Positions 1 to 29,725 of a stretch of 30,168 bases of DNA are shown here, piece after piece. The notes under the pieces were generated by a model. That model had not been told where the DNA came from and searched no databases. It was given only the letters and a program-made list of their open reading frames with translations. The translations under genes and the position numbers were made by a program. Positions within the stretch are counted from its first letter, which is position 1. The number at the start of each line of letters is the position of its first letter. The stretch is from a virus: positions 1 to 30,168 of IMG/VR virus record IMGVR_UViG_3300034012_000155; one strand, written 5' to 3'.

Positions 1-1975
1 CATTAGCGAGACGTCGGACGGCAAGGCGCTTTTCCACTGTCACGGTGGCTGCGATCAGGGGACGGTGTTCTCCGTGATCCGTGAGAGAGGGCTGCTGCCA
101 GAACTCGAGGCCAGACCCGAGCCGCTCGCGCTGATCAAGCCCGTCGCCGTAACGAGACAGCTTGAGCAGGAGTGGCACTACACCGACGAGGAGGGCGTGA
201 CGCTGTATATCAAACAGCGTTACAAGACCACCGACGCCAAGGGTAAGGACTACAAGCTGATCAAGGTCGACGAGGCAGGCCGTCGGCACGCAACGCTGGG
301 CGATGCCCGGATCGTGCCGTACAAGCTGCCCGAGCTGCGTGACGCGATCAGCAAAGGCCGCTACGTCTACCTCACGGAAGGCGAGAAGGCGGCGGATGCC
401 GTGATCTCGCTGGGGTCGGTGGCCACGACCAGCCACGCGGGTAGCGGAACCTGGCCCGACGCCATAACCGAATACTTTGCCGGCGCGAACGTGGTGATCC
501 TGCCCGACAACGACGCGCCAGGCTGGAAGTACGCCAAGAAGGCGGCAGCCAAGATCCTGCCTGTCGCCAAGAGCGTGCGGGTGATCGACCTGGGCGGCGA
601 GGCGCTGGGCGATGACGCCTTCGAGTGGATCTACAGCCAAGGCAAGACGCGCACGGACCTCGCGGATCTGGTCAAGGCGCAGGCGCCCATTACCAGCGAG
701 CAAGAGGTCCATGCGCCAGAGCGGCTTAAGGAAAAGCCGCCGGCAACCGAGGCAGCGCCACCAGCTGAAACGATTCCCGCAACGATTCCCGACGCGCCCA
801 AAGAGCAGCCTAAACGCACCCTCAAGCTCGAGTCCTGGGACGACATCAAAGACGAGCCGGTTGAGTGGCTCATCCATAAGGTGCTGCCCAAAAAAGGCTT
901 TGCCGCGCTCTATGGCCCGCCAGGTAGTTTCAAGTCGTTCATTGCTCTGGACCTGGCAGCGGCCATCGCGCGCGCGCAGCCCTGGATGGGGCAGGACTCG
1001 AGCCCTAGTGATAACGGGGCAATCATCTACATCGCGGGCGAGGGTCATGGGGGCATTGGCGCACGGATCAAGGCCTGCCGCATCCATCACGGCATCGACA
1101 ACGGGGCGCCGATCTACGTCCTGCGCCACCAGGTGAACCTGCGCTCGAGCGCCGACGACATCAATACCTTGATGCTGTCGATTGCGCAGCTGCAGGAGGA
1201 CCGCGGCTTCGTCATCGACCTGATCGTCATCGACACGCTAGCCAGGGCCTTCGGCGGGGGCAACGAGAACAGCTCCGAAGACATGGGCGCGTTCATCACC
1301 AGCTGCGGCCATTTGCAGCAGGTCTTCGCGGCCGCATTGCTCGTGATCCACCACAGCGGTAAGGATCAGGCCAAGGGGCTGCGCGGCCATTCGTCGCTGC
1401 TCGGGGCCGTGGATACGGAGCTGGAACTCCTGCGTTTTGACGATCAGCCGCGGGGCGTGGTCACCATATCTAAGCAAAAGGACGGCGAGGATGGTGTCCG
1501 TTACGGGTTTGAGATGGTGGAGATTGACATCGACGAGCCAGGCGAGAAGGGACTAGGACTTGATGAGCCGCGCAAATCGTTGGCCGTGAATCCCTCAGAC
1601 GGTGATGCGCTGGCGCGCTCCGAGGAGGCCAAGAAAGTAGGCCTTAATCGCTCAGGTAAGGGTAAGAAACAGCAGATCGCGGTGCAGGCTTTGAGGGACG
1701 TAATTAACGCTAAAGGTACACATTGGAAGGTGTCGGTCGGTGTCCGTAAGTGCGCGAAGGTGGACCAATGGAGGGACGAATTTGCGAAAAAGATGGGCAG
1801 TGACGAGGCCGGCAGCGATGCTTTTAGAGCAGCCTGGAGACGCGTAAGGAGCGATTCTGGACGTCCGTCAGACGTGAAAATCGAAGGAGATTGGGCTTGG
1901 ATTGAGCAGTTTGAGGAAAAGACAGATGAATACTTTAGACCTGGACGAATGGTCGAATCGTGTGACGAATCGTGA
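1..1975 (+). CDS. Phage primase-helicase (zinc finger, TOPRIM, RepA-like ATPase), 5' end outside window
   Basis: Reading is open from the first bases of the window (codons start at base 2), so the true start lies upstream. The first codons give FHCHGGCDQGTVF, the end of a CHC2-type primase zinc finger. A GTG at 65 is in frame but would cut this off. Numbering from that GTG, a TOPRIM domain follows, with TEGEKAAD (~104-111) and LPDNDAPG (~147-154). After a Pro/Ala-rich linker (~215-250) comes a RecA-fold ATPase with Walker A GPPGSFKS (284-291) and Walker B LIVIDTLARA (~386-395), plus the VIHHSGKD motif typical of RepA/AAA_25 helicases. The C-terminus (~520-625) is basic and looks like a winged helix. 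The expected role is priming and unwinding at the phage fork. The gene ends inside a 10-bp repeat array, and its TGA is part of an inverted repeat. Confidence 0.9.
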   Translation, partial: ISETSDGKALFHCHGGCDQGTVFSVIRERGLLPELEARPEPLALIKPVAVTRQLEQEWHYTDEEGVTLYIKQRYKTTDAKGKDYKLIKVDEAGRRHATLGDARIVPYKLPELRDAISKGRYVYLTEGEKAADAVISLGSVATTSHAGSGTWPDAITEYFAGANVVILPDNDAPGWKYAKKAAAKILPVAKSVRVIDLGGEALGDDAFEWIYSQGKTRTDLADLVKAQAPITSEQEVHAPERLKEKPPATEAAPPAETIPATIPDAPKEQPKRTLKLESWDDIKDEPVEWLIHKVLPKKGFAALYGPPGSFKSFIALDLAAAIARAQPWMGQDSSPSDNGAIIYIAGEGHGGIGARIKACRIHHGIDNGAPIYVLRHQVNLRSSADDINTLMLSIAQLQEDRGFVIDLIVIDTLARAFGGGNENSSEDMGAFITSCGHLQQVFAAALLVIHHSGKDQAKGLRGHSSLLGAVDTELELLRFDDQPRGVVTISKQKDGEDGVRYGFEMVEIDIDEPGEKGLGLDEPRKSLAVNPSDGDALARSEEAKKVGLNRSGKGKKQQIAVQALRDVINAKGTHWKVSVGVRKCAKVDQWRDEFAKKMGSDEAGSDAFRAAWRRVRSDSGRPSDVKIEGDWAWIEQFEEKTDEYFRPGRMVESCDES

Positions 1976-2074
1976 CGATTCGTCCACCCCCAGAAGAGCG
2001 GTCAAACGCGTGACGAATCGTAGCAAGGGTATATCTTGCTACGATTCGACCGCCCGATCTCACGATTCGTCACG
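1952..2074. repeat. Array of six 10-bp GACGAATCGT repeats in both orientations
   Basis: Six copies of GACGAATCGT or its complement ACGATTCGTC occur in about 120 bases. They lie at 1952-1961 (+, one mismatch), 1964-1973 (+), 1975-1984 (-), 2012-2021 (+), 2041-2050 (-, one mismatch) and 2062-2071 (-). Copies two and three form a perfect inverted repeat with one central base. The array starts inside the 3' end of the primase-helicase gene and fills the gap to the next gene. This arrangement suits binding sites for a replication initiator or repressor. Which of these applies cannot be told from the sequence. Confidence 0.8.
2014..2048. repeat. Long hairpin within the 10-bp repeat array
   Basis: Bases 2014-2027 (CGAATCGTAGCAAG) are perfectly complementary to 2035-2048, giving a 14-bp stem around the 7-base loop GGTATAT. 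No T-tract follows on either side, so it does not look like an intrinsic terminator. It may be an operator, an origin structure or an RNA hairpin. Confidence 0.7.
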
Positions 2075-2097: not shown

Positions 2098-2760
2098 ATG
2101 AAGAAAAAACAAAGCAGAAAACCGGGGCAAATTCCGACGCCAGTCGAGGTGCAGTTTCCTGAGTCTGAGTTCTCGAGGTTCTTTAAGGCGCGGATGGTGG
2201 AGCTGGACCGCATCAAGCGCGAGCACGAGGACAAATGGGGTGTGAACAGAGTTATTGCTTTGGTAGACGTAGAGTTTCGTATCAAAGTGTGGAAGCAGGC
2301 CGAGCGGGTCTGGGAGGCGGCAGGGACAGAGGATTTCAACCGGCTGGCCGCGGCGTGCGATGGAATGATTCGCGCATACCGGGCGATGGACAAGTGGGCA
2401 GTTGACGAAGGCATTGCGCCCGCGGGGCAGGTCAAGGCAATCGAATGGGAGATGGACGACGGGGCCGTGATGGCCGTGGTGCAAACCGAGGCCGACGCGG
2501 CGGCGTATCAGCGCACCAGGCCGGACGTGGAGAACCGTCACGTCTGGTCGATGCAAGAGCTGGTGACGATGCTGGAAAGCGGTCTGGGCAGCGACATCGC
2601 CAGGCTGAAGGCGACGCTCGGGATGCCTGCGACCCTCGTCAAGGTTGAGGCCAATGGCTCGGGGTTCGACGACTTCGAGAACGACCTAGACCTGAAAAAG
2701 CCGAGCGCGACACCTAAAATGTTCCCGACCGACATGAAGCCGCTGCAGAAGATGCGTTAG
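2098..2760 (+). CDS. Conserved phage protein of unknown function next to terminase genes
   Basis: A 220-residue soluble protein. I chose ATG 2098 over the in-frame GTG at 2083 because GGAG at 2084-2087 is a plausible ribosome site for it. The N-terminus is basic (MKKKQSRK). The middle is helical, with a DFNRLAAACDGMIRAYRAMD segment, and the end is rich in acidic residues and lysine. I recognise no catalytic motif. Its place between the primase-helicase and the small-terminase-like gene suggests a DNA-handling or packaging helper, but this rests only on position. Confidence 0.75.
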   Translation: MKKKQSRKPGQIPTPVEVQFPESEFSRFFKARMVELDRIKREHEDKWGVNRVIALVDVEFRIKVWKQAERVWEAAGTEDFNRLAAACDGMIRAYRAMDKWAVDEGIAPAGQVKAIEWEMDDGAVMAVVQTEADAAAYQRTRPDVENRHVWSMQELVTMLESGLGSDIARLKATLGMPATLVKVEANGSGFDDFENDLDLKKPSATPKMFPTDMKPLQKMR

Positions 2761-14822: not shown

Positions 14823-15607
14823 TGGCTGGTATCCACAACGTGTTGGCGGGGGCGTTTGGCGGCCCTTTGGTCACACCTACCGTTGAATATTTAGTTATTG
14901 CTGGTGGTGGTGGTGGCGGCGCATCTAACGGCGGCGGCGGTGGCGCAGGGGGATATCGGACAGCTTCTGGCCTCGATGTGACCGCAGGCTCCGCGATTAC
15001 CGTTACCGTTGGCGGCGGAGGCGCAGGTAAAAATACTTCAGGCGGGACTGTGTTCGGCGCTGGTTCAGACGGCGGGAATTCAGTTTTTGGAACAATTACT
15101 TCTACTGGAGGTGGCGGTGGTGGGGGTAGCCTTGAAGCTGGGCGTAATGGAGGCTCTGGCGGCGGTGGAGGCAATGAAGGTCGTGCAGCAGGTACGGGCA
15201 CCGCAGGTCAAGGTAACAACGGCGGCTCTAACAGTGCAGGCGGTGGTGGTGGTGGTGCTGGTGCGGCAGGCAGCGGCACGAACGGGGGGAATGGTTCTTC
15301 TTCGTCCATTTCCGGGTCTTCTGTTACTCGTGGCGGCGGTGGTGCGGGACGTTCATCTGGGGCAACTGGTGGCTCTGGTGGCGGCGGTGGGCCAAACGTT
15401 AACGGAACCGCAAACACAGGTGGCGGCGGTGGCGGTTGGAACGATACAGGCAGCTCAAGCGCAGGTAACGGTGGCTCTGGCATCGTGATCATTCGCTACG
15501 AGGACATCTATCCCGCTGCAGCGTCTACTACCGGATCTCCTAGCGTGTCTGTTACGGGCGGTTATCGTATCTACACCTGGACTGGATCCGGGTCGATTAC
15601 GTTCTGA
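14822..15607 (+). CDS. Glycine-rich tail-tip adhesin
   Basis: A 261-residue protein with many Gly runs (about residues 25-215), starting VEYLVIAGGGGGG and ending SGIVIIRYEDIYPA, then GGYRIYTWTGSGSITF. This layout (short start, polyglycine sandwich, conserved end) matches phage glycine-rich adhesins such as the T-even gp38 type, where loops between Gly strands bind the host receptor. The order fibre then glycine-rich tip is expected. The GGT/GGC codon runs may slip during copying and vary the loops. Confidence 0.8.
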   Translation: MAGIHNVLAGAFGGPLVTPTVEYLVIAGGGGGGASNGGGGGAGGYRTASGLDVTAGSAITVTVGGGGAGKNTSGGTVFGAGSDGGNSVFGTITSTGGGGGGGSLEAGRNGGSGGGGGNEGRAAGTGTAGQGNNGGSNSAGGGGGGAGAAGSGTNGGNGSSSSISGSSVTRGGGGAGRSSGATGGSGGGGGPNVNGTANTGGGGGGWNDTGSSSAGNGGSGIVIIRYEDIYPAAASTTGSPSVSVTGGYRIYTWTGSGSITF

Positions 15608-19267: not shown

Positions 19268-20749
19268 ATGCCTTACATCAAGCTGCAGATCCCGCCAGGC
19301 GTCTACCGTAACGGCACCGAATATCAGTCGGCTGGCCGGTATTACGACGCCTCTCTCGTTCGCTGGTACGAGGGCACCATGCGCCCGGTTGGCGGGTGGC
19401 GCAAGCGTTCCAATTCACAGATGACTGGCGCCTGCCGCGGCTTTCTGAACTGGCGCGACAACGCTGGGAACCGCTGGATTGCTGCTGGCACGCATTCCAA
19501 GCTGTACGCCATGAATGAGGCGGGCACTCTTAAAGATATCACCCCGACAGGTTTCACGGCTGGATCAGCGGACGGCGTGAGCAAGGTCGGCTACGGCTAT
19601 GGCCCTTACGGCGCCTATGCTTACGGCGTGGCGCGCCCTGATACCGGCAGCTTTACACCGGCCACCACCTGGAGCCTGGATACCTGGGGCGAGTACATGG
19701 TGGGCTGCTCCAACTCTGACGGCAAGCTCTACGAGTGGCAGCTAGGTTTTTCCACGCCCACGCTGGCCGCTGCGATCACGAACGCGCCCACGGGTAACGA
19801 GGCGGTAATGACCACGTCGGAGAGGTTCGTTTTCGCTCTGGGCGCGGGTGGCAACACCCGTAAGGTGGCCTGGTGCGATCAGGAAGACAATACGGTGTGG
19901 ACACCGGCGGCAGATAACCAGGCCGGCGATTTTGAGCTGACGACTGTGGGCGACATCAAGTGCGGCAAACGCATTCGCGGCCTGTCGATCATCTTTACTG
20001 ACGTGGATGTACATACCGCGACGTATGTGGGTTTACCCTATGTGTACTCGTTTGAGAAGGTCGGCTCGGCCTGCGGGGTGATTTCCTCGCAATCCGTGGC
20101 GGCCATTGAGACGGCCGCGGTCTGGATGTCGCGCTCCGGGTTCTGGATTTATGACGGATACGTCAAGCCTCTGCCGTGCGACGTGTCAGATTTTGTCTTC
20201 CAAGACATCAACTACGCGCAGGCCAGCAAGATCTACGCGGTCAATAATTCCAAGTACGGCGAGATCTGGTGGTTCTACCCGTCGGCCTCCGCGACGGAAA
20301 ATGATTCTTACGTTGTATATAACTACCGCGAGAACCATTGGGCGATTGGCGATCTGGCGCGCACCGCTGGCACCGACCGCGGTGTGTTCTCTAATCCGCT
20401 GATGGTGTCTTCTGACGGATACATCTACGAGCACGAGGTGGGCTATGCCTACGATTCGGCGGTGCCTTTTGCCGAGTCCGGCCCGGTCGAGCTGGGCAAC
20501 GGCGATCAGACGATGAGCGTGCGCCAATTGGTGCCGGACGAGCAGACGCTGGGCGAGGTCCAGGTCTCCTTTAAGGTGCGCCAGTACCCGATGTCCACCG
20601 AGACGACATACGGTCCGTATACCGCATCTCAGCCTACCGATGTGCGCTTTTCTGGCCGCCAGGTCAAGGTGCGCTACACCGGGGCGGTGCTGGACGATTG
20701 GCGGGTCGGCGTGCCTCGGATGGAGGCGATTGCAGCCGGTGGCCGTTAA
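19268..20749 (+). CDS. Tail nozzle / DNA stabilisation protein
   Basis: A 493-residue protein rich in Trp, Tyr and Gly, with a regular strand pattern like a beta-propeller. The start (YIKLQIPPGVYRNGTEYQSA, then GRYYDASLVRWYEGTMRPVG) and the middle (NTVWTPAADNQAGDFELT) match proteins called P22 gp10-like stabilisation or podovirus nozzle proteins. It closes the tail under the adaptor and keeps packaged DNA in. It overlaps the next gene by one base (TAATG). Confidence 0.85.
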   Translation: MPYIKLQIPPGVYRNGTEYQSAGRYYDASLVRWYEGTMRPVGGWRKRSNSQMTGACRGFLNWRDNAGNRWIAAGTHSKLYAMNEAGTLKDITPTGFTAGSADGVSKVGYGYGPYGAYAYGVARPDTGSFTPATTWSLDTWGEYMVGCSNSDGKLYEWQLGFSTPTLAAAITNAPTGNEAVMTTSERFVFALGAGGNTRKVAWCDQEDNTVWTPAADNQAGDFELTTVGDIKCGKRIRGLSIIFTDVDVHTATYVGLPYVYSFEKVGSACGVISSQSVAAIETAAVWMSRSGFWIYDGYVKPLPCDVSDFVFQDINYAQASKIYAVNNSKYGEIWWFYPSASATENDSYVVYNYRENHWAIGDLARTAGTDRGVFSNPLMVSSDGYIYEHEVGYAYDSAVPFAESGPVELGNGDQTMSVRQLVPDEQTLGEVQVSFKVRQYPMSTETTYGPYTASQPTDVRFSGRQVKVRYTGAVLDDWRVGVPRMEAIAAGGR

Positions 20750-28256: not shown

Positions 28257-29015
28257 ATGGCCGACTACATCCGCCCCACCCCGCGCAACCCTATTCTGGG
28301 TCTGCTTGCTGACGCCATGATGGGCGGCCTGTCCTACATGGAAGATCCGCGACGCACGCAGCAGATGCGCGGCGTCGGCGGCCTGCTCTCGGACACCGGC
28401 CTCGCTCAGACTGTGGAGCGTCTTGCCTACGGCGAGCCGCTGACTAAGGGCGCCGGCTTTGCCACGCGAATGAAGCCGGAAACGGCTAACGCGGTGATGA
28501 CGCTGGCCCCCGAGGCTGTGCCGATTGGGCGCGCGGCGATGGCCGGCGTGAGGGCGACTAAGGGGTTGCCGGTGGGGGCAAGCGTTAAGCCTGTCGATTT
28601 TTCTTACAGAGGATCGCACACCGCCCCCGGTCCTGACTTTGGGGCTCCTCTTTTTGATTTGACGGGCAAGGGTGAAATGTATCCGGCCGATGTTTATTCG
28701 GCTAATGCTGCTCGCTATTACGGAACTGGGAATCCGGCTGCGGATAGAGAGGCGTTTGCGCTGGCTAACAGAGTCAGAAACAAGCCTGACGCCGTTGTCA
28801 CGGCTTATAGAGCGGTTCCCAAAGATGAAAAAATCACGTCAATAAATGAAGGCGACTGGGTTACCTTGAGCAAAGATTATGCAAAGCTGCATGGCGAGTC
28901 GGCTCTTCGTGGGAATTACAAAATCCTCGCGGAAAAAGTAAAAGCGAAAGAGCTTTACACCAACGCCGATTCAATTCACGAGTTTGGCTACTGGCCTGGG
29001 CTGCTTGCCGACTAA
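28257..29015 (+). CDS. Putative ADP-ribosyltransferase-like protein
   Basis: A 252-residue protein. The N-terminal ~110 residues are helical (MGGLSYMEDPRRTQQMRGVG). The C-terminal part has an R-S-E pattern of ADP-ribosyltransferases: YRAVP (R185), WVTLSKDYAKLHGE (S205) and IHEFGYW (E242), with SYRGSHTAPG before it. I recall similar domains in phage and toxin-like proteins. It could modify a host protein. The assignment needs a structure search; a single E at 242 without a second E two residues before gives lower certainty. No ribosome site is clear. Its stop overlaps the opposite-strand gene. Confidence 0.55.
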   Translation: MADYIRPTPRNPILGLLADAMMGGLSYMEDPRRTQQMRGVGGLLSDTGLAQTVERLAYGEPLTKGAGFATRMKPETANAVMTLAPEAVPIGRAAMAGVRATKGLPVGASVKPVDFSYRGSHTAPGPDFGAPLFDLTGKGEMYPADVYSANAARYYGTGNPAADREAFALANRVRNKPDAVVTAYRAVPKDEKITSINEGDWVTLSKDYAKLHGESALRGNYKILAEKVKAKELYTNADSIHEFGYWPGLLAD

Positions 29016-29725
29016 CGCGCTCGACGCGCAATCAGATCCAGAACCTCGCGGTCGCCAGCCTGATCCTCGGTCGGCGCGAACAAAGCGCGATTTCTCTCCA
29101 CCGCGCCCACGCGGGGCTCGCATAGGTAGTACACAGCCAGAGACTTGCGGTATTGCCCCGGCGGGCAGGTGATCGGCTCGGGCAATCCATGCCACGCATT
29201 CGTAGTGTCGAAGATCACGGCGCGGTTAAAGAGCGGCGCGATGGACTTAACGAGCTTGCCAGGCTTGCCGCCGTCGTCGGTCCATAGGCCCAGTGCGCCA
29301 CCCCATGTCTGATCCCAATCAGGATTGAGGTACACGATCAAGTTCAGCCGGCGCTCGAGGCCGAGCTTGGGGTGGATGCTGTAGTCCAGATGCGTATTGA
29401 GCTTTCCACCGGCGCCGTGGATGTGCAGCCCGCCGCCGTGAAGGCCGTGATCCGGGTAGAGCTTGCAGTGGGTGAGGCGCTCAAAGATCCGATAACACTC
29501 TGGCGAGTTGATGTCGGTAAAGAACTGATACAAATTTGGTGCAAAAAAGTGCCAATTATTTAGCGTCTTTTTCACCTCGATGGCGTTGTCGTAACTGTGC
29601 CAGGCGCTGCTGTCGTAAGGCGGGAATTCGCCAGCAAGTTTGTGCGCCAGCTCGTCGTCGAAGAAGTTGTCCAGCACCAGGTGCGGGAACGGCTCCAGAC
29701 TTTCCCAATGGTTCTCGTTTGTCAT
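29012..29725 (-). CDS. 2OG-Fe(II) oxygenase
   Basis: A 237-residue protein on the - strand. HLD (H112, D114) within KLNTHLDYSIHPK and a distal His in AWHGLPEP (H179), followed by R193 in QYRKSLAVYY, make the iron and 2-oxoglutarate site of the prolyl-4-hydroxylase-like superfamily. NLIVYLNPDWDQTWGGALGL is the typical central block. Such genes are common in aquatic phages. Substrate is unknown; proteins and nucleic-acid bases are both possible. It overlaps the upstream resolvase by 4 bases. Confidence 0.9.
   Translation of the reverse strand: MTNENHWESLEPFPHLVLDNFFDDELAHKLAGEFPPYDSSAWHSYDNAIEVKKTLNNWHFFAPNLYQFFTDINSPECYRIFERLTHCKLYPDHGLHGGGLHIHGAGGKLNTHLDYSIHPKLGLERRLNLIVYLNPDWDQTWGGALGLWTDDGGKPGKLVKSIAPLFNRAVIFDTTNAWHGLPEPITCPPGQYRKSLAVYYLCEPRVGAVERNRALFAPTEDQAGDREVLDLIARRAR

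Follow-up and report, generated by a model that had tools for sequence, protein, structure and literature searches.

The alpha protein of P4 unites a primase, a helicase and a repeat-binding winged-helix domain (PMC4234260, citing Ziegelin and Lanka 1995; Yeo et al. 2002). The P4 alpha helicase belongs to SF3. The crenarchaeal plasmid pRN1 has a stem-loop origin directly downstream of its replication gene, of which the structure is kept while the sequence varies, and its replication protein ends in a winged helix (PMC4234260). RSF1010 (IncQ) combines a RepA-family helicase with iterons and the priming hairpins ssiA and ssiB (PMC4234260). Moreover, in the PLE satellite replicon (RepA and iterons) and in the ICP1 nuclease Odn, the domain that binds the origin varies jointly with the iterons, and the two are exchanged as one module; an origin-directed nuclease was suggested as the driver of this swapping (PMC8263062). 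Iteron origins and swapped reader modules are already known, and what we describe here is likely a variant of these.

For most environmental phages the origin is unknown. Here, we examine a repeat array at positions 1944-2071 of a viral contig, which is likely a phage replication origin whose iterons would be read by the C-terminus of the phage's own primase-helicase and which would be exchanged as a cassette; both binding and origin activity are inferred.

A repeat array at the end of a primase-helicase gene

The window, that is, the whole stretch of 30,168 bases that was analysed, is IMG/VR record IMGVR_UViG_3300034012_000155, an incomplete genome of which a DNA search of INPHARED found no near relative. 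Its primase-helicase consists, in order, of a Toprim-like primase, a RepA-family AAA_25 helicase and a C-terminal winged-helix-like domain; the 5' end of the gene is cut by the window edge and the stop codon lies at 1973-1975 (Table 1). The window also encodes a phrog_1216 portal and an Sf6-like terminase small subunit (terS). In longer relatives the module runs nuclease-like, SSB-like, primase-helicase, array, conserved unknown gene and terS (names by eye), and no gene for a DNA polymerase was seen in it.

Two side observations concern the gene content. In one relative of the window phage, a DNA methyltransferase-like gene with a TSPPY motif (L082:3236-4228) lies directly upstream of the primase-helicase, a position occupied in other relatives by an SSB-like gene. 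In the window, an iron/2-oxoglutarate oxygenase-like gene (29012-29725, minus strand) was seen, by eye only, beside a Holliday junction resolvase gene.

Table 1. Positions of the features discussed in the text, numbered from the first base of the window.
Feature	Positions	Strand	Basis or remark
Primase-helicase gene	2..1975	+	Pfam AAA_25 E=8e-38, weak Toprim_2; PHROG primase/helicase families
AAA_25 (RepA-like) helicase domain	827..1372	+	Pfam
C-terminal winged-helix-like domain, inferred iteron reader	1688..1912	+	AlphaFold2; identity tracks repeat type
Predicted recognition helix (SDAFRAAWRRVRSD region)	1805..1849	+	AlphaFold2 model; repeat-tracking columns
Weak seventh iteron GACGAATGGT	1944..1953	+	
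Iteron GTCGAATCGT	1952..1961	+	one mismatch
Iteron GACGAATCGT	1964..1973	+	exact; left palindrome half
Iteron GACGAATCGT	1975..1984	-	exact; right palindrome half
Iteron GACGAATCGT	2012..2021	+	exact; hairpin 5' arm
Hairpin	2014..2048	+	perfect 14-bp stem 2014-2027/2035-2048, 7-nt loop 2028-2034
Iteron GTCGAATCGT	2041..2050	-	one mismatch; hairpin 3' arm
Iteron GACGAATCGT	2062..2071	-	exact; outermost
Downstream gene	2098..2760	+	function unknown; kept in relatives; served as linkage control

The first-pass annotation had reported six 10-bp repeats in both orientations, two of them with one mismatch, two copies forming a perfect inverted repeat and two more lying in a hairpin with a 14-bp stem. 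All of this held. Between 1952 and 2071 we counted four exact and two one-mismatch GACGAATCGT-type sites, in both orientations, the first copies overlapping the 3' end of the primase-helicase gene; the inverted repeat is a perfect 21 bp with a 1-nt centre (1964-1984), and the hairpin is confirmed as well (2014-2048).

The density of sites, which had been judged beyond chance, was also confirmed. With at most one mismatch allowed, the 30 kb contain 10 matches, as against 1.95 ± 1.42 in shuffled sequences (0/100 shuffles reach 10), and outside the array there are only two isolated matches of this kind, at 20451 and 25795. No other 300-nt segment of the 30 kb stretch holds six copies of any 8-mer. 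The runner-up 8-mer cluster, with five copies of CCACCGCC at ~15.1 kb (15001-15530), was rejected as a second site array, being a glycine-rich coding repeat. Frequent occurrence of the 10-mer elsewhere had been proposed as a refuting test; it is not frequent over the whole stretch, and the origin reading survives. Two criteria for an iteron origin are met: the repeat cluster exceeds chance and is essentially confined to one place in the genome, and the gene of a candidate initiator, the RepA-type primase-helicase, ends inside the array. The GC skew, also proposed as a check, shows no switch at the array, but it follows gene orientation and is thus uninformative.

A search against Rfam gave no match. 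A small ORF over the array (1926-2093) was judged a by-product; it is open in the nearest relatives, and the stretch is not kept across the family. A GANTC methylation site inside the repeat unit was rejected, since relatives have AAATC instead.

The array is kept in relatives while its sequence changes

We compared over 200 relatives, drawn from IMG/VR contigs, cultured roseophages and two phage-plasmids, and three scans of viral contigs yielded three primase-helicase families, namely W (window type), S and R (roseophage type). The presence of the array in these relatives is shown directly: right behind the primase-helicase gene, 43/43 W, 90/98 S and 71/77 R loci have their top 7-mer at least four times (close relatives being counted separately), compared with 3-6% of upstream control windows. 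The common layout comprises direct repeats, an inverted copy, a spacer, a pair of copies around a hairpin and further copies. Conservation in relatives was another proposed check, and the answer is divided: only close relatives have the 10-mer unchanged, whereas the architecture is kept in nearly all.

Repeat units are 10-12 bp long and vary among relatives, yet all copies within one array change together. They include GTGACGAATCGT, GGTCGAATCGT, GGTCAAATCGT, GAACAAATCGT and GGGACAAATCG in W; GGTTACAAA, GGTAACAAAC, TGCGACAAA and ATCAGAA in S; and TGTATAAA, ACTACAAA, TGTCCTAAA, CGTACCA, ATGTGAA and more in R. In roseophage CRP-823, all 10 copies of ACTACAAA fall within the array. It should be noted that in two loci (L015:5437-5590 and L020:3947-4100) the array is separated from the primase stop codon by an additional, AT-richer stretch of ~150 nt, which has a lone iteron copy close to its beginning; this stretch could conceivably be an unwinding element.

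Beyond these phages, repeats follow the AAA_25 gene in Rhizobium phage RHph_N65 and in two phage-plasmids, from Caenibius sp. (L260:34251-34600) and Methylobacterium currus (L259:9601-9900). The Caenibius and Methylobacterium repeats are TGCGGAAG (12 copies) and CGCAACA (eight copies), with a hairpin. Both phage-plasmids are closed circles with phage genes, and in the Methylobacterium one the Toprim primase has a gene of its own. A scan of 20 phage-plasmid proteins, which are not all that the two encode, recognised no other replication initiator. The array was absent after the gene in four distant RepA-helicase phages (Vibrio 1.210, Caulobacter GB2A, MW202711 and Microcystis Mae-JY30).

The C-terminal domain of the primase-helicase changes together with the repeats

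AlphaFold2 predicts for the C-terminal domain the order H-E-E-H-H-E-E, which is that of a winged helix, with a modest mean pLDDT of 72. A fold search with two C-terminal models against the PDB gave nothing significant (best E about 0.4), and the sequence profile of the domain matched no PDB chain.

The joint change of iterons and C-terminus is nevertheless shown. When helicase and downstream gene are controlled for, repeat similarity correlates with C-terminal identity at 0.70 in W, 0.55 in S and 0.32 in R, exceeding all permutations in each family (0/500), although effects of relatedness are not fully removed by these permutations. In the same test the downstream gene gives 0.19 in W, -0.21 in S and 0.29 in R, so that in the R family its separation from the C-terminus is weak. 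With the C-terminus taken into account, repeat type does not follow the AAA_25 helicase core; in W and S it follows neither this core nor the downstream gene. As the array touches the C-terminal codons, linkage adds to the co-segregation.

Individual pairs illustrate this trend. Among the cultured roseophages, CRP-831 and CRP-821 carry TGTATAAA whereas CRP-823 and CRP-811 carry ACTACAAA; the C-terminal domain is 99-100% identical within a repeat type and 73-79% from one type to the other, whereas identity in the helicase part is 95-100% whichever of these phages are paired. Similarly, two S loci (L195 and L202) with the repeats GTAACAA and ATCAGAA have helicases 98% identical and C-termini 24% identical. 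Loci with the CTACAAA repeat, whose helicases are 57-97% identical to that of CRP-821, have the helix motif NPDSAYS in common, with one exception (L122) that has the repeat without the motif. The single best repeat-tracking column lies inside the predicted recognition helix in R and S, but outside it in W. Overall, the C-terminal domain is likely the iteron reader, its binding being inferred from the joint change of domain and repeat.

These data also bear on three other explanations of the array. According to the first, the repeats follow the initiator or regulator of the host species, in line with their differing between phages with presumably different hosts. However, CRP-821 and CRP-823 infect the same host strain, FZCC0197 (PMC12629253), and one strain with two repeat types indicates that the reader is encoded by the phage, not by the host; repeat type moreover tracks a phage protein domain. 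We strongly disfavour this explanation and consider it very improbable.

A packaging site (cos or pac), with the repeats as sites of the terminase small subunit, would fit the position of terS 0.8 kb downstream of the array in the window. Cos sites can carry repeats in both orientations. However, repeat type does not correlate with terminase small subunit identity (rho 0.07 and 0.02), and in CRP-823 terS lies ~3.3 kb away on the circular record with several genes between. Terminase binding was rejected on the basis of the missing correlation, and a packaging role is highly unlikely.

The third is a site for partition or another form of segregation, to which a protein of the phage or of the host would bind. 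Centromere-like sites, too, typically consist of clustered repeats, and one of the two phage-plasmids has a ParA gene. Against this, reading the W-family gene lists by eye gave no recognisable ParA or ParB, the repeat type goes with the C-terminus of the primase-helicase, and a strictly lytic lifestyle is described as probable for the roseophages (PMC12629253). This explanation, too, has very little likelihood.

Pairing in the hairpin is conserved

The hairpin of the window has a folding energy z of -6.3 relative to shuffles. The pairing of its inner stem (2021-2025/2037-2041) is kept in relatives while the sequence changes, and this kept pairing is shown: across 17 distinct W hairpins, pairing holds in 96% of cells, and 8/15 pairs changed on both sides, compared with 1-2 in slid controls. 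Since the outer arms are iterons, concerted change is expected there anyway; two-sided changes, without mismatch, are likewise seen in the inner pairs, both at the edge of the iteron and past it. That pairing rather than sequence is kept in the inner stem argues for a formed hairpin or cruciform.

Some further observations concern its sequence. One W-family phage (L019:2400-2540), with a primase-helicase 79% identical to that of the window, has an S-type hairpin core (GAGAGTCT..AGACTC), and hairpin core and protein family are therefore not strictly linked. The inner sequence was not used as evidence in the form of a family marker, because pattern counts are loose and exceptions such as L019 occur. 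In W, S and R, one or two extra bases are usually seen by eye on the 5' side between iteron arm and inner palindrome (AG before GGTATACC, GA before GAGTCT, AA before CCTTTAGG), an asymmetry that might set strand choice.

The alternative raised in the first-pass annotation, a multi-site operator, can be weighed here. According to this, the primase-helicase C-terminus or a regulator binds the array and controls the downstream structural operon, or autoregulates, without there being an origin. The array ends only 26 bp before the next gene (2098), and iteron initiators often regulate transcription as well. However, no promoter-like or terminator-like site was found in the array above chance, specificity tracks a replication protein, the array is on the 3' side of the gene for the reader, a conserved hairpin with compensatory changes is unexpected for a plain operator, and the phage-plasmids keep repeats at the same place. 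An operator in place of an origin is thus unlikely but is not excluded as a second role, and a phage origin with initiator sites, the other reading originally offered, remains the best supported.

Discussion

We propose that the winged-helix-like C-terminal domain of the primase-helicase would bind the 10-12-bp iterons and that, with sites occupied in both orientations, the RepA-type helicase would be assembled at the array. Opening of the DNA would then expose the hairpin strand, on which the primase part could make the first primer, to be extended by the host polymerase (a polymerase gene was not seen in the replication module of the relatives). Reader domain and iterons would form a specificity cassette that is swapped among related phages, whereas helicase and neighbouring genes stay. 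That the iterons are bound, that the array acts as an origin and that the hairpin serves in priming is inferred, without binding or replication data.

A bolder reading, as likely to fail as to hold and to be taken as one joint claim, is that phages and phage-plasmids widely share an origin class that has not been described so far, that its C-terminal reader and the adjacent iteron-hairpin origin are exchanged freely as a specificity cassette, that selection (exerted, for instance, by origin-directed nucleases, by satellites or by co-infecting relatives) has diversified this cassette, and that a protein-to-DNA recognition code can be read from natural variation. The roseophage paper (PMC12629253) mentions neither iterons nor repeats, and we found no description of this origin type in the literature searched; as subscription journals were mostly uncovered, an earlier one is not excluded.

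In practice, repeats and a hairpin after a RepA-type primase-helicase provide a sequence rule for finding origins in hundreds of contigs, and the many reader-repeat pairs are a natural library that could yield a winged-helix recognition code. Moreover, cultured roseophages that share a host strain allow direct tests of origin warfare or incompatibility among phages.

By analogy, the candidate origin likely works like that of P4 alpha, yet it is a member of no family tested. As in P4 alpha, primase and helicase are found in one protein; the predicted element order of its C-terminal domain fits a winged helix, at modest confidence, and repeat binding is inferred here. Unlike in P4 alpha, the helicase is RepA-type (Pfam gives AAA_25 only, with no SF3/D5-type match), the C-terminal domain has no sequence match to any PDB chain and a conserved hairpin is present; in contrast to P4 with its crr, no second repeat region was found in the window (an incomplete genome) or in the complete CRP-823 and CRP-821. 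The structure-conserved stem-loop downstream of the replication gene is shared with pRN1, which differs in having no iterons and in its archaeo-eukaryotic primase and SF3 helicase, the latter absent here. With RSF1010, the locus shares a RepA-family helicase, iterons and a hairpin, whose priming role is inferred here. However, RSF1010 uses three separate proteins (RepA, RepB' and RepC) in place of one fused protein, and its RepC binds 20-bp iterons, compared with the shorter units here and a reader inferred to be fused to the helicase. The PLE satellite has RepA_N and three ~30-bp repeats, whereas here we find short repeats, a C-terminal reader, a helicase-primase and no RepA_N Pfam match, in phages and phage-plasmids. 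As in PLE and Odn, reader domain and iterons change jointly, and the satellite offers a parallel to the rapid exchange of origin specificity in virulent phages.
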